Of a stretch of DNA of 64,000 nt, positions 44,003-63,299 are shown in pieces. The notes beneath the pieces were generated by a model, which was not told the origin of the DNA, made no database searches, and saw only the letters and a list, made by a program, of their open reading frames with translations. Made by a program: the position numbers and the translations under genes. Position 1 is the stretch's first letter, and every line of letters starts with the position of its first letter. The stretch lies in NCBI RefSeq assembly GCF_021596945.1, contig NZ_CP063779.1, positions 3,508,001 through 3,572,000 on the forward strand, given 5' to 3'. Origin of the DNA: Mongoliitalea daihaiensis. Lineage in GTDB: Bacteria > Bacteroidota > Bacteroidia > Cytophagales > Cyclobacteriaceae.

Positions 44003-45226
44003 ATGATACGAAAAATCTTTCTTTACATTTGTTTGCTCGGCATAAGTTTGCAAAGCAGCATATACGCACAAATCTATTTTCCTCCAGCAGGTCAATGGGC
44101 AGAAAAAAATCCTCAAGAGCTGAATGTATCTGCTGCTAAACTTGCCGATGCCATTCGCTTTGCGCAGGCAATCGAAAGCACCCAAGATCCCAATCTCAAA
44201 TTGGCGCATTACCAGTCTGCTTTTGGTCGGGAACCTTTTGGTTATCCTGTTGGTCCTATGAAAGATAGAGGAGCGTCCACAGGTTTGATTATTTACAAGG
44301 GCTATATCATCGGAAAATGGGGAGACCCAGATCGAGTAGACTTGACTTTTTCAGTAGCTAAAAGCATCCTATCCACCACAGCGGGCTTAGCAGTAGATGC
44401 TGGATTGATCCGTTCAGAAAAAGATTTGGTGTATCCTTACATGGCACCTATCATCCCCTACAACCCTGCTCAAACCCTGCAGAATAAAGCCGATCATATG
44501 TTTCAAGAAGATGTTTTTGATTTGTTTGCGGGAGAACATAATCGAAAAATTACCTGGGAACATTTGCTGAGACAAACATCCGATTGGGAGGGTTCCCTTT
44601 GGGGAAAACCTGATTGGGCAGATAGGCCTACGGGTAGTTCCATGGACTGGCTAACGCGAGAAAGACATGAACCTGGAACAGTCTATAAGTACAATGATAC
44701 TCGCGTAAATGTCCTGGCATTGGCTTTGTTGAATGTTTGGAGACGTCCGTTGCCTGTGGTCTTAAAAGAGCGGGTGATGGATAAAATCGGTGCGAGTCCT
44801 ACTTGGAGATGGACAGGATATGAGAATTCATTTGTAATTATGGACGGGCAAATTGTACAATCTGTCAGTGGTGGTTCGCATTGGGGAGGTGGCTTGTTTA
44901 TTTCTGCTTACGATCAAGCAAGATTTGGATACCTTACCTTGCGTAACGGGAAGTGGAATGGTGAACAAATTGTCTCTGAAGCTTGGATAAACAAATCCAA
45001 AACTCCAACCTCTGTTCAGACCAATTATGGTTTTATGAATTATTTCCTAAATACAGATAAAAAAGAAATCCCTAGTGCACCCGAATCAGCCTTTTATCAC
45101 CTTGGTGCAGGTACCAATATGGTGTATGTAGATCCTGAAAATGAACTAGTAATCGTAGCTCGGTGGATCAACAACAATGAAAAAGCTGCATTGGTGGAGA
45201 AGGTATTGGAGGCGATCGAGAAGTGA
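44003..45226 (+). CDS. Serine hydrolase, class C beta-lactamase fold, exported
   Basis: A 407-residue penicillin-binding-protein/beta-lactamase-fold hydrolase. The signal peptide is MIRKIFLYICLLGISLQSSIYAQ. The nucleophile motif SxxK is SVAK (in TFSVAKSILSTTAG), the YxN motif is in YKYNDTR, and the third motif is probably HLGAGTN rather than KTG. Most such Bacteroidota proteins are esterases or D-amino-peptidases, and resistance should not be inferred. Expected in the periplasm or outer membrane. It is likely monocistronic, followed by a 310-base repeat-rich gap. Confidence 0.88.
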   Translation: MIRKIFLYICLLGISLQSSIYAQIYFPPAGQWAEKNPQELNVSAAKLADAIRFAQAIESTQDPNLKLAHYQSAFGREPFGYPVGPMKDRGASTGLIIYKGYIIGKWGDPDRVDLTFSVAKSILSTTAGLAVDAGLIRSEKDLVYPYMAPIIPYNPAQTLQNKADHMFQEDVFDLFAGEHNRKITWEHLLRQTSDWEGSLWGKPDWADRPTGSSMDWLTRERHEPGTVYKYNDTRVNVLALALLNVWRRPLPVVLKERVMDKIGASPTWRWTGYENSFVIMDGQIVQSVSGGSHWGGGLFISAYDQARFGYLTLRNGKWNGEQIVSEAWINKSKTPTSVQTNYGFMNYFLNTDKKEIPSAPESAFYHLGAGTNMVYVDPENELVIVARWINNNEKAALVEKVLEAIEK

Positions 45227-45315
45227 AGCTAAAATAAGGTAGAAATAAGAATTAAAATAATTTGAGATGAGATACGAATCAAAAGACAAGATTTAAAGGA
45301 GCTGTCCAGGCTGTT

Positions 45316-45487
45316 CGAGATTTGCAATCTAGAACTTGGGATAAGGGGGATTTGCAATCCCCTTTGGTTTATTGGTTTGTTACCTCAAATTGTTTCCGAC
45401 TTAATTTTACTTTTTCTTAATCTATGACGTCAACTGTAGTGGGATTGCAAATCCCACATTATCTGTTTCCCGAAATTGCAAATTTCG
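45316..45487. repeat. Four small hairpins with TGC or GCA loops (REP-like cluster)
   Basis: Four palindromes have the common form ...ATT-(TGC or GCA)-AAT...: 45318-45330 (AGATT/AATCT), 45346-45362 (GGGGATT/AATCCCC), 45439-45457 (GTGGGATT/AATCCCAC) and 45471-45487 (CGAAATT/AATTTCG). Arms differ but the core is constant. No transposase is nearby. The remaining bases of this 310-base gap show no gene. Confidence 0.7.
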
Positions 45488-45493
45488 AGAAGC

Positions 45494-45563
45494 TTCACTG
45501 TTTACTATTCACTGCTCACTGTTCACTATCCACTGTTCACTGTCCACTGCTCACTCTCAACTT
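45494..45563. repeat. Tandem degenerate heptamers (TTCACTG class)
   Basis: Ten consecutive seven-base units: TTCACTG, TTTACTA, TTCACTG, CTCACTG, TTCACTA, TCCACTG, TTCACTG, TCCACTG, CTCACTC, TCAACTT. The array runs across the stop codon of the cysteine desulfurase gene. Confidence 0.88.
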
Positions 45564-46691
45564 CTCAACACATTCCCTGACAGCCTGAATAGCTATTTCA
45601 ATGTCTTCTTTGGTGGTGGACCAGCCTAGGGAGAAGCGAATGGATGCTTTGCCTTGCTCATCGCTTAGGCCCATGGCTTTGAGAACGTGTGAGGCTTTGG
45701 GAGTAATTGAAGAACAGGCAGAACCTGAACTGCAGGCGATGGTTTTATTGAGTTGAAAAAGCAAATCTTCCCCTTGTACCCCTTCAAATGCTAAGTTGCT
45801 GACATGTGGTAAACGATGGCTGACGCTGCCATTGATCGAGATACCGGGCAATTGACAGATCGCATTTTCAAGGGAATTACGTAGTTCCTCCATTTGGGTA
45901 GAATTACTACCTATGGACTTTCGGGCAATTTCAGCGGCTTTACCCATGCCTACAATGCCCGGAACATTCAATGTACCGCTCCGGAATCCTTTTTCATGGT
46001 TTCCTCCATCTAGGATCTGTTTAGGTTTGGCAAAAGTATCGTTGTGCCGTATGAATAAAGCTCCCACGCCTTTGGGGCCATAAAATTTATGGGCTGAAAG
46101 CGCCATCAAATGGCAATGGGAAGTTGTCACAGGGATTTTTCCTACACCTTGGACAGCATCGGTAAAAAGGATTACTCCATGCCTCTCAGCAATGGCAAAT
46201 ATTTCATCCATCGGGTGAATCAAGCCTGTTTCGTTATTTGCCCACATCAAGGCAATCATTTTGGTGTGAGGCCGCAGAGATGCTTGCAAAATTGACAAAT
46301 CGATCTCCCCTTTGCCATTCACTGGTAAATAGGTAACCTCTGCTCCCCAACTTTCCAAGGTTTGGAAGGTGTCTAAAACTGCCTTATGTTCGGTTAAACA
46401 GGTGATGTAATGTTGGCGTTCTCCCTCGAAATTGAAATAAGTTCCCTTGATGGCTTGGTTGATAGCCTCGGTCGCACCTGAAGTAAAAATGATTTCTTTG
46501 GGTTTGGCTCCGATGGCTTGAGCTACTCTTGCACGGGCCAACTCCACTGCCTCTTCTGCTATCCACCCATATGGGTGATGCTTGCTTGCCGCATTCCCGA
46601 AATGTTTGGTAAAAAAGGGAAGCATCTCCTCCAAAACTTCGGGATGACAGGGTGTAGTAGCATTGTAATCCAAGTAGATAGGTGCCTTCAT
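45537..46691 (-). CDS. Cysteine desulfurase, NifS/IscS-type
   Basis: A PLP enzyme of 384 residues that removes sulfur from cysteine as a protein persulfide for Fe-S clusters or thio-modification. Seen: YLDYNATTPCHPEVLEEM, TSGATEAINQAIKG, the Schiff-base lysine in LMALSAHKFYGPKGVGALF, and the mobile catalytic-cysteine loop in ACSSGSACSS. ATG 46691 is chosen over GTG 46703; it leaves one base to the arfB stop. iscU/sufE-type partners are not adjacent. The last residues (EKLRVSSGQ) and TGA lie in a heptamer array, so the native C-terminus seems to have been replaced or extended. Confidence 0.92.
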   Translation of the reverse strand: MKAPIYLDYNATTPCHPEVLEEMLPFFTKHFGNAASKHHPYGWIAEEAVELARARVAQAIGAKPKEIIFTSGATEAINQAIKGTYFNFEGERQHYITCLTEHKAVLDTFQTLESWGAEVTYLPVNGKGEIDLSILQASLRPHTKMIALMWANNETGLIHPMDEIFAIAERHGVILFTDAVQGVGKIPVTTSHCHLMALSAHKFYGPKGVGALFIRHNDTFAKPKQILDGGNHEKGFRSGTLNVPGIVGMGKAAEIARKSIGSNSTQMEELRNSLENAICQLPGISINGSVSHRLPHVSNLAFEGVQGEDLLFQLNKTIACSSGSACSSITPKASHVLKAMGLSDEQGKASIRFSLGWSTTKEDIEIAIQAVRECVEKLRVSSGQ

Positions 46692-46692
46692 C

Positions 46693-47106
46693 TCAATAAT
46701 CACTTCTCCATTTTTTCTTTTCAGATCGGGCCTTTTTTGCTTTCAACCGTTCCTCAACTGCTGCTTTGGAAGGCTTAGTTGCAATCCTCTTTTTTTTCTT
46801 TTCAAAAGCCTTGGTCAGCAGTTCATAAAACTTCCGAATGACCAGATCCTTATTTTGCAGTTGGGAGCGCTTTTCCTGACTTTGTAGGATGATGCCACCT
46901 GAAATATCAAGTTTAGAGCTCCATTTTTTCTGCAGTACTTCTTTTTCCTCTAGGTCCAAAACCTGCGATGCCAAAACGTTGAATTTCAGCTGTACTTTGG
47001 AATTGACTTTATTCACGTTTTGACCTCCGGGCCCAGAGGATCGGCTCATGATAAATTCAAATTCAGGATCAAATAAGCGTTGTTTTATTTTTTGTTGAAT
47101 ATGCAT
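46693..47106 (-). CDS. arfB: Alternative ribosome-rescue peptidyl-tRNA hydrolase ArfB (YaeJ/ICT1)
   Basis: A 137-residue single-domain release-factor homologue that hydrolyses peptidyl-tRNA on stalled ribosomes without a stop codon. The catalytic GGQ motif is in MSRSSGPGGQNVNKVNSKVQL. A lysine/arginine-rich C-terminal tail (KKKRIATKPSKAAVEERLKAKKARSEKKKW) follows, as needed to enter the empty mRNA channel. The length is right for ArfB, and there is no domain for codon recognition. It probably shares a transcript with the downstream cysteine desulfurase (1-base gap). Confidence 0.93.
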   Translation of the reverse strand: MHIQQKIKQRLFDPEFEFIMSRSSGPGGQNVNKVNSKVQLKFNVLASQVLDLEEKEVLQKKWSSKLDISGGIILQSQEKRSQLQNKDLVIRKFYELLTKAFEKKKKRIATKPSKAAVEERLKAKKARSEKKKWRSDY

Positions 47107-47168
47107 ACTGACAGGAAATAAGGATCATCCTTGAGTAGTAACTATCCTCAGTGGGAATAGTTCCAGTG

Positions 47169-48422
47169 TCACATGCCATGTGCCAGCTGCATCAGCAATC
47201 CACAGATGTAGGCTCCATAGGTGCCAACAGCATATCCTAAAACAGCCATCAAGACCCCTACCGGTGCTAAGGAAGGGTTGAAAGCTGATGCTACGATGGG
47301 TGCTGAAGCTGCTCCTCCGACATTTGCTTGAGAACCCACAGCCACGTAAAAGAACGGTGCTTTGATTAAAAATGCTACCAAAAGCATGATCATGATATGG
47401 AATAGCATCCAGGTAATCCCGATAAGAAAGAAAACAGGATTATCAAAGATAGCTCCTAAATCCATTTGCATCCCGATGGTAGCCACCAATACATAAAGCA
47501 ACAAGGAACCCATGCGCGAAGCCCCTACTCCTTCGAGTTTTCTGGTTTTCGTGAAGGACAACACTAAACCACCCGTTGTAGAAACTACCACAATCCAGAA
47601 GAATGTAGAATCCAAGGAATAAGCACTTAAGGCTGGGTAATTCTCACCGATAAAGGGTGCCACATAATCGGCAATCAAGTGAGACAACCCAGTAATCGCA
47701 AAGCCAATTCCAACTATTTTCATGCTATCTGCCAAGGTGGGAAGCTTCATGATACTCGCACGATACTTTTCAACCTTTTCCTGCAACTCCGTAATTGCCG
47801 AAGCATCTGCCTTAAAGATTTTATCAATTTTTCCTGGTTTGGCTGCCCAATATAGCAAAACAGCCATCCACACATTGGCTACCAAAACATCCACTGCAAT
47901 CATTTGGGAAAACAAGGTTGGACTTGCTCCAAATACTTCTAGCATGGCTGTTTGGTTGGCACCTCCTCCAATCCAGCTGCCGGCGATCGTTGCTAAGCCT
48001 CTCCAGATTTCGTCGGGACCAACTCCACCTAAGATTTCGGGATAAATGGCCGAAATAGTCAGTAATGCCAAGGGGCCACCCACTATAATCCCCAAGGAAC
48101 CCGCCAAAAACATGATCAAGGCTTTTGGTCCCAATTTTAAGATACCTTTGAAATCAATTCCTAAGGTTAACAAAACCAAGGAGGTTGGGAGTAAGTAGCG
48201 GGAAGCAACTTTGTACAAACCTGAGCTTTCACCAGATATAATTCCCAAGGAGTTGAAAACAGCTGGGATAAAATAGCAAAGAAGAACGGATGGGATATAT
48301 CGATAAAATTTCTGCCAAAAAGGGGCTTTACTAGCCGATGTACTGAATACAAATGCTAAGGTCAACATCAACAAACCTAGGACGGTTGCGTCGTTTGTCA
48401 ATAATGGCGTTTGTTCTGTCAT
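47169..48422 (-). CDS. DUF819-family integral membrane protein
   Basis: A 417-residue protein with about 12 hydrophobic helices of the DUF819 (YjcL-like) family. Seen: CYFIPAVFNSLGIIS, the SWIGGGANQTAMLEVFGAS motif, and the C-terminal VGSQANVGGAASAPIVASAFNPSLAPVGVLMAVLGYAVGTYGA segment. This looks like a secondary transporter with two inverted glycine-rich motifs; its substrate is not known. The start is ATG 48422; the longer frame begins with TTG 48461. Nothing in the surroundings suggests a substrate. Downstream on the same strand come arfB and the desulfurase, 62 bases away. Confidence 0.87.
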   Translation of the reverse strand: MTEQTPLLTNDATVLGLLMLTLAFVFSTSASKAPFWQKFYRYIPSVLLCYFIPAVFNSLGIISGESSGLYKVASRYLLPTSLVLLTLGIDFKGILKLGPKALIMFLAGSLGIIVGGPLALLTISAIYPEILGGVGPDEIWRGLATIAGSWIGGGANQTAMLEVFGASPTLFSQMIAVDVLVANVWMAVLLYWAAKPGKIDKIFKADASAITELQEKVEKYRASIMKLPTLADSMKIVGIGFAITGLSHLIADYVAPFIGENYPALSAYSLDSTFFWIVVVSTTGGLVLSFTKTRKLEGVGASRMGSLLLYVLVATIGMQMDLGAIFDNPVFFLIGITWMLFHIMIMLLVAFLIKAPFFYVAVGSQANVGGAASAPIVASAFNPSLAPVGVLMAVLGYAVGTYGAYICGLLMQLAHGM

Positions 48423-49130
48423 TGTAAATAGGTTAGATTTTGTAATGAATAGTAGCTGCAAGATATGGAATCACGGTTGAAGATTTAATATTTTAGAATT
48501 TAGATTTTAGATTTCAGTTCACGAATTATGACTGATTCATTGACTATTTTGTGGATTGAAACTCGAGCCTAGCAGTAGCTCTTGGGTTTGTTGCTCTTTT
48601 ATAGAAAAAATTCATCTTGAAATAATCATATGGTTTCTTATTTTTAAGCGAAATGTAGGCGAATGGTCGGGAGACACACGGGACACGGTCGGAACGTAGT
48701 CGGGACATGTACCCTAGAAAAAGCGGTATTTTAATGGGGAAATATGAATATTTCCGATGCTTTATAATTTTTTTAAGATCTGAAATAGTTGATTTTTTAC
48801 CATTAAGGGATTAAGGGAATGAAGGTTTGGTATAATATGAAGGCTAATTTTCAAAGTAGCGTATCAGGTATTTTACCAAAAAGGGGCGTTAGCCCTGCGA
48901 TCTCAAACTGACGGGGAACGAAAAACCTGGCAGGTTTGCGATAGCATGGGGAAATAAAAAGCTTCAACGGATATCTAAAACCTGCCAGGTTTTACCTAGA
49001 ATCGATAGTCCTGATGGGACTTTGTTTTTTACGAATTCACATTTACCTTGGGTTGAAACCCAAGGCTAGCATGTCTGCTGTGCCTATGGCATTAAGTTTA
49101 ACCCATATGTTAACACTTAACAATTCCAAT
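48423..49130. repeat. Intergenic region with REP-like palindromes and one heptamer run
   Basis: No gene was seen here. Heptamers (TTTTAGA, ATTTAGA, TTTTAGA, TTTCAGT) lie at 48484-48518. Two mutually complementary hairpins AAACCT-GGC-AGGTTT (48923-48937) and AAAACCT-GCC-AGGTTTT (48977-48993) stand about 40 bases apart. CCTTGGGTT-GA-AACCCAAGG is at 49046-49065, and a related GAAACTCGAGCCTAGCA string at about 48560. These look like Bacteroidota intergenic repeat families with no transposase here. Confidence 0.65.
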
Positions 49131-49908
49131 CACCCTCGCTGGTCTTTAGAACCCTCCTAACTGTCCCCCCTACCAACTGCTCACTGATCACTCCCCACGC
49201 CGGTCTCTAGAATCCCCTCATTCATTCCAAATTCTTCATTCCACATTCTACATTCCCAACTGCACACTGTTCACTTCCATCGTCGGTCTTTAGAATCCCC
49301 TCATTCATTCTAAATTCTTCATTCCTAATTTCACATTCCACCCCCACTGTTAACTGTCAACTGCTAACTGTTCACTGTTCACTCTCATCGTCGGTCTCTA
49401 GAATCCCCTCATTCATTCCAAATTCTTCATTCCTAATTTCACATTCCACCCCCACTGTTAACTGTCAACTGTTCACTGTTCACTTCCATCGCCGGTCTCT
49501 AGAATCCCCTCATTCATTCCAAATTCTACATTCCACATTCTTCATTCCCAACTCCCCAACTCCTGGCGTCGACTTCGTTCAGCACACGTGGTGTCACTCG
49601 CAACTGTTCACTACTCACTGCACCACCCTCGCTGGTCTTTAGAAGCCCCCAATTCATTCCAAATTCTTCATTCCACATTCTAATTCACTAACTGCTCACT
49701 TCCCACTGCTAACTGTCCACTGCTAACTGTTCACTCCCATCGCCGGTCTTTAGAATCCCCTCATTCATTCTAAATTCTCCATTCCTAATTTCACATTCCA
49801 CCCCCACTGTTAACTGTTAACTGTCAACTGCTAACTGTCCACTGTTCACTCCCATCGCCGGTCTTTAGAATCCCCTCATTCATTCCACATTCTACATTCC
49901 TAATTACC
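49131..49908. repeat. Composite heptamer array, eight irregular copies
   Basis: An approximately 780-base array carries eight GGTCT(C/T)TAGAA marks at about 49141, 49202, 49285, 49393, 49494, 49634, 49745 and 49860. Between them are heptamer runs of two types: ATTCTAA, ATTCTTC, ATTCCTA, ATTTCAC, ATTCCAC (49307-49341) and ACTGTTA, ACTGTCA, ACTGCTA, ACTGTTC, ACTGTTC (49346-49380). The plus strand is almost free of G apart from the marks. No open frame. Copy lengths vary from 60 to 140 bases. Confidence 0.9.
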
Positions 49909-52380
49909 TCACTCCCCATTCAATCCTTTTCTGAATTTTTCCCAGAAAGTTTGGAGGAAGCTTTTACTACGTTTTTTGAAGTGCTTTTTCTTTTCTTCCA
50001 ACTCTTCTCCGTAGTAGTTGTACATGTACTTGTTGTTTTGGGAATAGAGATAGGTGTTTCCGTAACCGTAGTTGTAGCCCTCGTAGTAATAGCCTGAATC
50101 GACGATGCCATTAAATACCCCATAGACATTGTTCACTTGCTTATTGTTAAACAAGTCATTGATCATAACCAGATGGTCTTTCATGGTGTAGTTTTGTCTG
50201 ACTACATAAAGATTAATATCAAACAAGCGCATCAAATCGATGGTCTCAGAAACCAAACCTAGAGGTGGTGTATCGAATATAATCATATCAAAACGCTCTT
50301 CTAAGTATGCAATAAATACTTTTAGTCGATCGGATTGTAACAATTCAGCAGGATTTGGAGGAATGATACCAGAGGGCACAAAAAATAGGTGTTCGTTATC
50401 TGTCTTTATAATAATTTCTTCTTCAATAGCTTTGCCAATTAAGTAAGATGATAAGCCTATTTTTTCTTTATGATTAAAGTAGGAACCTAACTTGGGTCTC
50501 CTTAAATCTGCTCCGACTACAACTGTCTTTTTTCCACCAAGAGCCATGGCTGATGCCAGGTTGAGGGAAACAAAGGTTTTTCCTTCTCCCGAAACAGAAG
50601 AGGTAACCAATATCTTTTTCCGTTTTTTATCTGCAGCTAAGTAATTAATAGCAGATCTTAGCGATCGGAAGGATTCTGAGACAGCTGATTTTGGGTGTTC
50701 AAGTACAACCATATTGGTATCTTTTTTACTTTTACCAATGATGGACAATTGAGGAATCATAAAGTGTTTTTTCAATCCTCTTTGATCCTTGATACGGTCA
50801 TCAAAAATATCCTTCAACACTAAAAACCCGAAAGGCAACAAAAAGCCTATGGCTATTGCCATGATATAGTTCTGCTGCTTTTTAGGAAAAACTAAATTTC
50901 CTCGTTTGGCATAATCCAATATCGCATTATCAGAGACATTGGAAGCTCTTGCAATCCCAGCTTCTGCTCTTTTTTCTAACAAATACGTATATAGATTTTC
51001 TCGCAACTGATACTCTCTAAATATCGCAGAATATTTAGATTCTGCTTCTGGAAGCATCTTGAATTGATCGTCGTAGACCTGAATATCCTGAGCTAATAGA
51101 TTCCTTTTTTCGCGAGTATTGGCTATTAAATTAGTGATATTTTCTACCAAAGCATCTTGCACCTTATCCATCTGAACGTCAATTTTGATGACATCGGGAT
51201 GGTTTTCATTGACAGAGGCAAGCAATTTACGTCTGTCCTGAGAAAGAGTAACCAAGGTTTGAATCAATCCATTTAACAAAGGATCCGGAATTCCCACAAC
51301 GGAAGGTGCAATTACTTGGGTGTAATCCTTTGTCTTGCTCTCCATGTAGCGCTTGATGGAATTGTAATAGGACATTTGGAAATCCATCTCTTGCGCCTGT
51401 TCATCTAGGCGATTCATTCGGTTCAAAATATCATTGAATTCAGAAGAAACATTGATCATCCGATTTTCAACTTTAAAATTCTGAAGCTCACGTTCTTTCT
51501 TTCTCAAGGAATCTTCAAGGTATCCCAATTGTTCCTCGATAAAACTTAAGGTATTTTCTGCATTTCGGTTTTTTTCTCGCAATTCGTAATCCAAATAAGA
51601 CTCCATCAAAGCATTGATGTAATCCCTGCCTTTTTCCACTACCGTAGTGGTGGTACGAATTTCTAAAACAGATGCCATGACATTGACCAAAGTAATGGCA
51701 ATGGATTTGGACATTCGTTCTTCTAAGGAAACAGGATTTCTAAGGATATACACGATGGTTTCACCTACCCTTCCTGGATTAAACAAATACACTTTTAATT
51801 TGGAACGTGTGGTTTGAATGTCCTCTCCAAAATTGAAAGTACGGTTAAACAATTCCTCATCTCCGCCTGCTTTTGCTGGATTGATATCAAAAAAACCTCC
51901 ATCATCGGGTAGGATTCGAAAAGTTTTCTCAGTCAAAATCTCCAATTGCATGGGAATATCTGCTATTTGCAAATGATTCCAGTCTACCTCGATTTTGATA
52001 GGACTTCGATCATACAACTCAATTTGTTTAATATTGGTTTTGGCATAATACTCCACATCAAAATGAAGCTTGGCTAAGGTTTCTCTCGCCAACTGTTTGG
52101 ACGACAACATCAAAACATCATTTTCCAAATTGTTTTGGCCCGAAAAGATCCGAGATCTATCCAAAATTCTTGCTTCCGGTGTATTGTTAGCTTTGATGAC
52201 TATGGTCCCTGCGACCGAATATTGATCTACAGTATACCTGTGAAAAACGTAGGTGCCACTGATAAACAACAAGATAAAAAATAGATAAAGTGGCCAAAAG
52301 CGGATATACTTCGCAATGATATAGCGAATTTCCAATGCTTTTTCTTCATTATCTAATTGACTTAAATCAAGTTTATCCAT
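49909..52380 (-). CDS. Polysaccharide co-polymerase/tyrosine autokinase, Wzc type
   Basis: An inner-membrane protein of 823 residues that controls chain length and export of an exopolysaccharide. First membrane helix at about 31-48, then a periplasmic Wzz/GNVR part with long coiled coils (about 270-470), a second helix near 525, and a C-terminal BY-kinase: Walker A SGEGKT (597-602), Walker A' GADLRRP (about 623) and Walker B IIFDTPP (about 700). A tail with 12 tyrosines between about 764 and 790 (YYYEGYNYGYGNTY...) is the autophosphorylation cluster. The stop lies at the edge of the heptamer array. It follows the Wza-like gene after a 111-base gap. Confidence 0.93.
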   Translation of the reverse strand: MDKLDLSQLDNEEKALEIRYIIAKYIRFWPLYLFFILLFISGTYVFHRYTVDQYSVAGTIVIKANNTPEARILDRSRIFSGQNNLENDVLMLSSKQLARETLAKLHFDVEYYAKTNIKQIELYDRSPIKIEVDWNHLQIADIPMQLEILTEKTFRILPDDGGFFDINPAKAGGDEELFNRTFNFGEDIQTTRSKLKVYLFNPGRVGETIVYILRNPVSLEERMSKSIAITLVNVMASVLEIRTTTTVVEKGRDYINALMESYLDYELREKNRNAENTLSFIEEQLGYLEDSLRKKERELQNFKVENRMINVSSEFNDILNRMNRLDEQAQEMDFQMSYYNSIKRYMESKTKDYTQVIAPSVVGIPDPLLNGLIQTLVTLSQDRRKLLASVNENHPDVIKIDVQMDKVQDALVENITNLIANTREKRNLLAQDIQVYDDQFKMLPEAESKYSAIFREYQLRENLYTYLLEKRAEAGIARASNVSDNAILDYAKRGNLVFPKKQQNYIMAIAIGFLLPFGFLVLKDIFDDRIKDQRGLKKHFMIPQLSIIGKSKKDTNMVVLEHPKSAVSESFRSLRSAINYLAADKKRKKILVTSSVSGEGKTFVSLNLASAMALGGKKTVVVGADLRRPKLGSYFNHKEKIGLSSYLIGKAIEEEIIIKTDNEHLFFVPSGIIPPNPAELLQSDRLKVFIAYLEERFDMIIFDTPPLGLVSETIDLMRLFDINLYVVRQNYTMKDHLVMINDLFNNKQVNNVYGVFNGIVDSGYYYEGYNYGYGNTYLYSQNNKYMYNYYGEELEEKKKHFKKRSKSFLQTFWEKFRKGLNGE

Positions 52381-62592: not shown

Positions 62593-62648
62593 GTAGGGAT
62601 TCGAGGAATAGACATTGATGATGGGTTGAAAATACGACCTCTTTTTCA

Positions 62649-63220
62649 CCCCTCCTAGCCTCCCCTCGAGGGGAGGAATGAGTATCACTGGCGATTTTGG
62701 TAAAAATGAGATATGTAAGTTCAACTTTTATTGAAGACTAAGTGAAAGTTGAAAAAGGAATATGTTTCCCTATAGGGGTTGGGGAGAAGTACCCCTCCTG
62801 GCCTCCCCTCTAGGGGAGGGAAAGGTATCACCGGCGATTTGGGTAAAAATGAGATATGTAAGTTCAACTTTTATTGAAGACTAAATGAAAGTTGAAATTG
62901 CAATAGGCTCCCCTTTAGGGGTTGGGGGGAAGTACCCCTCCTGGCCTCCCCTCGAGGGGAGGAACGAGTAACAAATACGATTTGAGTAAAAATGAAATTC
63001 ATAGGTTCAAATTTTATTGAAGACTAAGTGAAAGTTGAAAACGGAATATGCTTCCCTATAGGGGTTGGGGGTAAGTACCCCTCCTAGCCTCCCCTCGAGG
63101 GGAGGAATGAGTATCACTGGCGATTTGGGTAAAAAAGGGATGTGTAAGTTCAATTTTTATTGAAGACTGCATGAAAGTTGAAAACGAAATATGCTCCCCT
63201 TTAGGGGCTGGGGGTAATAT
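62649..63220. repeat. Tandem repeat, four copies of exactly 143 bases
   Basis: Units begin at 62649, 62792, 62935 and 63078, each with CCCCTCCT(A/G)GCCTCCCCT. Each unit includes the palindrome CCTCCCCTCGAGGGGAGG (TA for GA in copy 2), an inverted repeat TTCAACTTT...AAAGTTGAA about 20-30 bases apart, and a CCCTATAGGGG or CCCTTTAGGGG palindrome near the end. Copies differ by scattered substitutions but not in length. No open frame. Confidence 0.93.
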
Positions 63221-63264
63221 CCCGACATCCAAGACAACTTGCTTAACAACTATTCACTAATTTT

Positions 63265-63299
63265 TCCAATTCCTCATTCCTAATTCCTAATTTCTAATT
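63265..63299. repeat. Heptamer run before the right-edge gene
   Basis: TCCAATT, CCTCATT, CCTAATT, CCTAATT, TCTAATT in exact seven-base register, ending about 11 bases before the next start codon. Confidence 0.75.

Follow-up and report, generated by a model that had tools for sequence, protein, structure and literature searches.

A composite array of degenerate heptamers behind a Wzc-like gene, and the strand-dependent placement of heptamer arrays beside genes

A composite heptamer array was found in the window, i.e., the whole stretch of 64,000 nucleotides that was analysed. The array, at 49131-49908, is beyond doubt a composite built from degenerate heptamers of two classes: blocks of ATTC-type and ACTG-type heptamers alternate along its plus strand, and the linker GGTCTYTAGAATCCCC occurs eight times. 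Arrays of the types ACTGNNN, TCTYGNN, and ATTCNNN recur in the genome of the window (G000) and in its relatives. In most of the arrays sampled, the nearer open reading frame (ORF) lies on the side of the 5' end of the purine-rich strand. The best account of the arrays, and one that we hold to be somewhat probable, is mutational growth through slippage and the duplication of blocks, with selection acting as a filter on where the arrays lie and on their strand. STRR heptamers are tandem, degenerate repeats between genes of heterocystous cyanobacteria. The array is similar to them in being intergenic, tandem, degenerate, and heptameric, but the host phylum is different, the host here belonging to Cyclobacteriaceae. 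The initial annotation, which had read this stretch as a composite of ATTC-type and ACTG-type heptamers akin to the cyanobacterial ones, was borne out. The features of the window are collected in Table 1.

Table 1. Features of the window, with positions counted from its first nucleotide.
Feature	Position	Strand	Remark
Composite degenerate heptamer array	49131..49908		plus pyrimidine-rich, minus purine-rich; lag-7 z = 10.9; TRF periods 7, 14, 83, 108
Leading flank of composite (TTAACACTTAACAATTCCAATCACCCTCGCT)	49110..49140	+	version precedes related composite (L224) at other gene in congener
Linker copy 1 (GGTCTTTAGAA)	49141..49151	+	two mismatches to linker pattern
Linker copy 2 (GGTCTCTAGAA)	49202..49212	+	linker pattern match
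Linker copy 3	49285..49295	+	linker pattern match
Linker copy 4	49393..49403	+	linker pattern match
Linker copy 5	49494..49504	+	linker pattern match
Linker copy 6	49634..49644	+	linker pattern match
Linker copy 7	49745..49755	+	linker pattern match
Linker copy 8	49860..49870	+	linker pattern match
ATTC-type heptamers, first block	49221..49255	+	sequence
ATTC-type heptamers, further blocks	49304-49338, 49412-49446, 49513-49547, 49653-49680, 49764-49798, 49879-49899	+	sequence
ACTG-type heptamers, clean block	49343..49377	+	sequence
ACTG-type heptamers, further blocks	49173-49186, 49256-49269, 49451-49478, 49702-49729, 49803-49844	+	sequence
Non-heptamer insert (TGGCGTCGACTTCGTTCAGCACACGTGGTGTCACTCG)	49564..49600	+	sequence
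Wzc-like gene, 823 aa	49909..52380	-	stop codon 49909-49911 abuts array
Second ACTG heptamer array	45472..45573		overlaps 3' end of minus-strand ORF 45537-46703

The period of seven was measured by autocorrelation. Identity at lag 7 was 0.473, against 0.295 (sd 0.016) in 500 dinucleotide shuffles, and lags 14, 21, and 28 were raised as well (z = 10.5, 7.6, and 5.2); the excess over shuffled sequence that had been proposed as a check is present. In the array, lags 35 and 42 were not raised (z 1.3 and -0.5), and among lags 2 to 44 no lag other than the multiples of 7 exceeded z = 2.2. ATTC occurs 37 times, with an interval of 7 in 19 of 36 cases, and ACTG 27 times, with an interval of 7 in 17 of 26. 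When the array was cut at GGTCT, lags 7 and 14 still gave z = 10.7 and 11.6. Therefore, the repeat of approximately 100 bp is not the cause of the period-7 signal. The eight GGTCT marks, at the first positions of the linker copies, are spaced by 61, 83, 108, 101, 140, 111, and 115, i.e., with remainders of 5, 6, 3, 3, 0, 6, and 3 on division by 7. It had been claimed that the copies keep the seven-base register, which is true of the spacings 108, 101, and 115 (remainder 3) and not of the other four. The copies between linkers are higher-order repeats, seen as TRF periods of 83 and 108.

The plus strand, described earlier as nearly free of G, contains 71 G in 778 nucleotides (9%). Unusual pairing of this strand had also been suggested, but folded as RNA it behaved like its shuffles (z -0.39); the minus strand gave -2.0, with 0 of 20 shuffles equalling it. 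In an Rfam scan of 45000-50500 up to E = 1, the single match was below its gathering score and lay beside the array rather than over it, i.e., Acido-Lenti-1 RNA just before the array at 49046-49093 (27.4 bits, gathering 37, E 0.003). With no match at gathering score and these fold values, the array as a structured RNA was rejected. The array as a coding repeat was rejected as well; the plus strand has a stop-free frame of 143 codons but no listed ORF.

The gene beside the array was taken, from its sequence, to encode a Wzc-like tyrosine kinase. The purine-rich strand of the array is the sense strand of this gene, and the array lies directly 3' of the stop codon. The ortholog in a congener (G001) is 87% identical and has the same GLNGE end; the gene that the array follows is thus intact. 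At the wzc locus of G001, a hairpin and then a T-run follow the stop codon, no array is present, and the neighbour gene differs. At the second array of the window, the last residues of ORF 45537-46703 on the minus strand, presumably cysteine-desulfurase-like, are encoded by heptamers. Further downstream, a 143-bp unit in four tandem copies (TRF) was observed at 62648-63214, followed by TTCCTAA heptamers at 63264-63299. Both array-bearing gaps in the 40-60 kb part of the window are broken relative to G001. However, six further breaks were seen in the 1-40 kb part. One of them lies at a contig end of G001, and none coincides with either of the weak period-7 runs, two in number, of that part. Breaks are thus common between these two genomes, and the idea that arrays are synteny breakpoints was dropped.

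The frequency of such arrays was measured in an unselected 444 kb of G000, comprised of 19 random 20-kb stretches and the window. The intergenic DNA, with the array at 49131-49908 excluded, held 8 period-7 runs against 0.1 expected, as well as four runs of period 14 and two of period 21; each of the other periods from 4 to 21 gave at most one run there, not above chance. This local-run test replaced pooled intergenic autocorrelation, which was unspecific (z 8.0 at lag 9, higher than 6.7 at lag 21 and 5.1 at lag 7). Tandem seven-base units above chance, which mark the general class of bacterial heptameric repeats (STRR-like), are therefore present in both the array and the genome sample, and they are dispersed and intergenic by the ORFs of a simple caller.

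Matches in G000 numbered 63 for ACTGNNN in four units and 138 for TCTYGNN, with 0 for the reversed control of each. All 63 ACTG matches have YYM triplets, and 17/22 do so in the congener G001. Other genera share the ACTG core but differ in the triplets, i.e., AAA, AAT, CCC, CCT, TTT, and others. The initial annotation had called for a search in relatives, and four-unit ACTG arrays were found in 34/148 genomes of the family (26/84 genera) and 148/395 genomes of the phylum (70/171 genera). The reversed control GTCANNN was itself abundant in G433 (86 and 116 matches), G257, G265, and G246; other cores thus exist in some Bacteroidota, and the control is no clean null. A six-unit ACTG scan of named genomes gave at least 119 stretches, of which 80 were examined. 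Among the matches listed, these came from Cyanobacteria, Bacteroidota, a Parabeggiatoa, Acidobacteria, Planctomycetes, Chloroflexi, and others, and many were perfect repeats of one unit.

The placement of arrays was examined in 179 arrays of three families (80 ACTG, 80 TCTYG, and 19 ATTC), 82 of them from G000. They were taken from among the first-listed places of the match lists of the genomes, together with the random sample; arrays whose locus lacked an ORF on one or both sides were left out, as were repeated G000 places. Distances to the next ORF were compared between the purine-5' and the purine-3' side. Some ORF starts fall within pyrimidine-sense arrays, which inflates the start side; the count was repeated with ATG starts outside the array. 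The purine-5' side was nearer to an ORF in 153/179 arrays (p 4e-23, arrays taken as independent). The median distance was 38 bp on this side vs 339 bp on the other, and an ORF lay within 60 bp at 116 arrays on the purine-5' side vs 11 on the purine-3' side. By gap, in the set with ORF starts not corrected to ATG, all arrays obeyed the rule in 105/128 gaps, none in 13, and some in 10. In the unselected sample, 10/11 arrays obeyed it; the 11 include two that belong to the array at 49131-49908.

The rule was strongest at stop codons. With the purine-5' edge named first, it held in 47/53 arrays between stop and stop, 70/74 between stop and start, 27/40 between start and stop, and 9/12 between start and start. 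Where the purine-5' side faced a start codon the rule was weaker (36/52 arrays), holding for TCTYG (24/29) but not for ACTG (9/19). Convergent gaps held 53 of the 179 arrays, tandem gaps 114, and divergent gaps 12, against 17, 56, and 28 gaps of at least 150 bp in the sample; arrays are thus commoner in convergent and rarer in divergent gaps. In tandem gaps, the purine strand was sense in 74 arrays and antisense to both neighbours in 40/114. Within 30 bp of a gene 3' end, ACTG arrays were sense in 39 and antisense in 3 of 68, and within 60 bp TCTYG arrays were sense in 36 and antisense in 4 of 68, overlaps included in both counts. A further 14 TCTYG arrays lay within 60 bp of a start edge, and in each of these the purine strand was antisense to the gene starting there. 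Array-free stops (153) had a purine fraction of 0.52 in the next 60 nt, without marked purine excess.

The ends of ORFs could create such a rule by artefact. Read in purine sense, 72/80 ACTG arrays but only 22/80 TCTYG arrays contain a stop codon in some frame. ORFs reading into ACTG arrays therefore end there, which inflates the ACTG count at stops. As the cause of the rule, however, this artefact was rejected, because the stop-poorer TCTYG arrays give the same rule and the Wzc-like protein ends at its native residue. Across phyla, the purine-5' side was nearer in 56/79 ACTG arrays among the 80 loci of the matches listed, i.e., by our own grouping, Cyanobacteria 22/30, Bacteroidota 10/13, and others 24/36. 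In this test, 22 arrays were dropped (no ORF on one side), 6 lay inside ORFs, starts were not ATG-corrected, and many arrays were perfect repeats. The direction is the same as in the sample, and weaker.

Similar placement has been described for G-rich heptamers, GGGAATC and GGGGA(C/T)T, of Xanthomonas and Nostoc (Rehm 2015, PMC4692102). That paper reports the same rule in two Xanthomonas strains and one Nostoc strain, discusses G-quadruplexes, and leaves the function open. There, xanthomonad heptamers are nearer to an ORF on the 5' side (average 28 vs 160 nt), divergent gaps are avoided, and in one strain most repeat sequences are seen in RNA-seq data. Repeat regions are also more conserved there than control gaps, and quadruplex folding occurs in vitro (PMC4692102). 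The arrays of this study share the period of 7, the mostly intergenic and dispersed position, the nearer ORF on one side, and the avoidance of divergent gaps. Having the purine- or G-rich strand on the coding strand within 50 bp of a stop is likewise common to both, judged here with cut-offs of 30 and 60 bp. By contrast, the lean of tandem gaps to sense (74 vs 40) was counted as a difference, and one G-rich motif type per species is described there, whereas three motif types follow the rule here.

ACTG-containing repeats in Bacteroidota were also in print, contrary to the earlier statement that no counterpart in this phylum was described. TAACTGA direct repeats were reported in Beggiatoaceae, Cyanobacteria, and five Bacteroidetes, and most indels that separate two Cyanothece strains were in steps of 7 nt (MacGregor 2015, PMC4679880). 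They resemble the present arrays as intergenic ACTG-containing heptamers, with long arrays that include other heptamers in some Bacteroidetes. In the BOGUAY genome, the repeats are described there as mostly just upstream of start codons (PMC4679880), whereas the arrays sampled here are mostly beside stops and that at 49131-49908 follows a stop codon. TAACTGA occurs 0 times in this array on both strands and forms 0 tandem pairs in the 64-kb window, which sets the array apart from that class. In the phylum survey, perfect ACTGATA (= TAACTGA) arrays were found, among the matches listed, in three Bacteroidota genomes (G176, G233, and G453). Degenerate heptamers TDNGATT and NNTGAGT with seven-nucleotide gain and loss are known from the P6b loop of the Nostoc tRNA-Leu intron (PMC4476775). 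These also have two degenerate classes with free positions, but they form a stem within a group I intron with one class per intron, whereas both classes lie here on one strand of one intergenic gap. Open-licence literature was searched, by titles and the starts of abstracts, for heptamer repeats in Bacteroidetes and in bacteria generally and for tandem repeats in Cyclobacteriaceae, the last without any paper. Within this scope, degenerate heptamers that combine a kept core with a free triplet were not found described for Cyclobacteriaceae.

The core of the ACTG unit is better kept than its triplet. Units one to three places past a four-unit seed were taken unfiltered and compared with the edge unit of the seed. 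In six genomes with freer triplets (G064, G120, G002, G129, G082, and G085; 246 comparisons), identity at A, C, T, and G was 0.56, 0.66, 0.63, and 0.54, and at the triplet 0.36, 0.34, and 0.32. In G000 and G001 (234 comparisons), the values were 0.61, 0.59, 0.66, and 0.36, and 0.42, 0.50, and 0.44 at the triplet; the fourth core base is not kept in these two genomes. Non-seed units of G000 kept A, C, and T in 351/363 cells and G in 84/121, a count biased towards well-kept cores, both by the rule for extension and by the four-unit matches, which require the core by construction; the unfiltered comparison with the seed edge avoids this filter. A core kept better than the triplet is not expected from slippage alone and points to a constraint on the core beyond neutral growth.

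The order of units was also non-random. Compared with shuffled order, identity between adjacent ACTG triplets was reduced (z -2.9 in G000 and G001, -2.1 in the six genomes), and triplets two apart were alike more often (z 1.9 and 3.9), as were, in G000 and G001, those three apart (z 2.8, against 0.9 in the six). The likeness of units two or three apart indicates that blocks of 14-21 bp are copied too, and growth by single units is not the whole story. Plain slippage should blur all seven positions equally and make neighbours alike, but the opposite was seen. Together, the avoidance of identical neighbours and the better-kept core argue that more than neutral growth acts on the units.

Length changes were studied in 8 homologous pairs of stretches between congeners, i.e., congeneric species rather than strains of one species, at other arrays of the genus, the locus of 49131-49908 being without an array in G001. 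Among gaps of at least 4 bp, multiples of 7 made up 23/94 of those touching arrays vs 18/127 elsewhere (chance 1 in 7), a moderate excess within repeats whose alignment is ambiguous. Clean differences of a single unit were found for TCTTGAT (L226 vs L044) and ACTGCTC (L229 vs L308), and differences that are not multiples of 7 occur too, e.g., 109 bp in L044. The length change in 7-bp steps known from heptameric repeats is therefore seen at other arrays of this genus. Of the earlier proposal that arrays grow by seven-base steps, the steps themselves are supported by the unit differences and the 7n gaps, but blocks of 14-21 bp and of approximately 110 bp are copied as well. In L226 vs L044, identity was 78.6% before the array and 97.2% after it, as if a recombination tract ended there; the gene before this array is presumably serpin-like.

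The reading that we prefer, growth filtered by selection, starts from what was observed directly, i.e., the periodicity, the heptamer classes, the length differences of 7n, the block-wise order in which units follow each other, the placement rule among the sampled arrays, and the better-kept core. Slipped-strand mispairing would create heptamer tracts in non-coding DNA and then lengthen or shorten them by 7, 14, and 21 bp at a time. At 49131-49908, a block of approximately 110 bp (linker, ATTC heptamers, and ACTG heptamers) may have been multiplied by unequal recombination to give the eight linkers. Selection rather than growth would set which arrays survive, i.e., those outside ORFs, away from divergent promoters, and beside a gene, above all at its stop. 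The purine-rich strand would be the sense strand of the gene ending there, possibly because this orientation is the least harmful one next to a stop codon. As for the array at 49131-49908, the Wzc-like mRNA would carry it in its 3' untranslated region. If the filter acted only on mRNA sense, however, it would not predict the rule where the purine-5' side faces a start, nor the tandem arrays that are antisense to both neighbours.

Two alternatives lead beside filtered growth. In the first, which is rather doubtful, a putative protein would read a fixed core (ACTG/CAGT and others) at every seventh nucleotide of the 3' untranslated RNA or the DNA, with the triplet as a free spacer, and core and spacing would be maintained by selection on binding. 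The core kept better than the triplet, the ACTG core common across genera whose triplets differ, and the strong bias of place and strand agree with such a reader. But the dissimilar cores ACTG, ATTC, and TCTYG share the period and the placement, which one reader protein does not explain, and part of the core evidence is weakened by the seed requirement described above, which the unfiltered test avoids.

The second is a boundary of transcription, which we consider unlikely. Purine-rich RNA stalls polymerase, and Rho prefers C-rich RNA. Hybrids of G-skewed sense RNA with DNA may stall the polymerase behind the stop, or C-rich antisense RNA may recruit Rho, which would end antisense transcripts that come in from downstream. 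C exceeds G on the ACTG/TCTYG/ATTC strand in each motif family tested (C/G 1.3 to 82), and the enrichment of arrays in convergent gaps is in line with a boundary. Intrinsic terminator-like sites were found between stop and array in 0/62 cases and in the 150 nt after the array in 5/62, compared with 24/121 at array-free stops. These counts are suggestive but weak; the scan itself is a weak one, giving 16/121 on the antisense strand of the control and 3/62 after arrays, and the stretch from stop to array is short. ACTG arrays outside the genus have 0.44 YC dimers per 7 nt, a poor Rho site, which weakens the idea of a ladder of Rho sites.

A dispersed cassette was also considered, in which the composite would have spread by transposition or gene conversion with the heptamers as its end parts; this is quite unlikely. 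The same block order, linker - ATTC heptamers - ACTG heptamers, is present in G001 at L224 and twice in L222, and the linker with ATTC-type heptamers at L341, all of them places other than the wzc locus. L224 also carries a version of the leading flank, and window positions 49100-49139, at this flank, match G001:C3:234747-234786 at 88%. A REP-like hairpin, GGCTTCGACTCCGCTCAGCC or a near variant, lies close to heptamers in L224, L341, and L342, and also in L034 and L248. The non-heptamer insert in Table 1 resembles a degenerate copy of this hairpin (cf. L224 and L341), a likeness by eye and unscored. However, the G000 heptamer arrays inspected at other places have no linker. In G000, the linker pattern (up to 2 mismatches) occurs 8 times at the array and 4 times elsewhere, and at none of these four places do heptamers follow. 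Related composite blocks thus stand at several places of the genus, with the block amplified at 49131-49908.

G-quadruplex elements, as discussed for the Xanthomonas and Nostoc heptamers, share period and placement rule with the present arrays (PMC4692102), but they are very improbable here. On the purine strand, a motif of four G-runs, each of at least 3 and separated by loops of 1-7, was present in 1/80 ACTG, 0/80 TCTYG, and 0/19 ATTC arrays (2/179 with loops up to 12); quadruplexes therefore cannot be the general cause of the rule. Unlike the Xanthomonas and Nostoc heptamers, which have G-runs, the sampled arrays thus lie outside the class of G-rich quadruplex heptamers (at least 3 G per unit and a quadruplex motif).

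The placement rule known from quadruplex-forming heptamers therefore holds for three dissimilar heptamer types almost without quadruplex motifs, and the rule needs no quadruplexes. We tentatively raise, with low confidence, the idea that degenerate heptamer arrays are a general bacterial gene-boundary element set by period and strand rather than by any single sequence, in Bacteroidota, Cyanobacteria, and Xanthomonas. Such an element would have a fixed core and a free triplet, be read at every seventh nucleotide, and point outward from the edge of an ORF where it starts. If so, it would act on the 3' untranslated RNA or on transcription as it leaves or enters a gene, and quadruplexes, invoked for the known cases, would explain only a special case of it. 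The question of why seven, and why beside stops on that strand, is now testable, with many natural replicates per genome.

Several minor observations were made on the chromosomal scale. Of the clusters of four-unit ACTG matches in G000, grouped by us, 13/17 lie in G000:C1 at 3.55-4.62 Mb, approximately a fifth of the chromosome. In G085:C1 and G000:C1, long arcs of the chromosome carry TCTYG heptamers predominantly on a single strand, among the matches listed, and the arcs in G000 follow the sign of GC skew in the sampled stretches. With origin and terminus of G000 guessed from this skew, the presumed leading strand carries the purine-rich sequence in 27/40 sampled G000 arrays, and several of the exceptions follow the neighbouring gene. 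Replication polarity as the main rule was rejected and is treated as secondary. Another composite, with CAGT heptamers, a TGTAGTAACAAAAATCGATT-like spacer, and TCTTG heptamers, was seen several times at 3.92-3.98 Mb (L037, L038, and L039).
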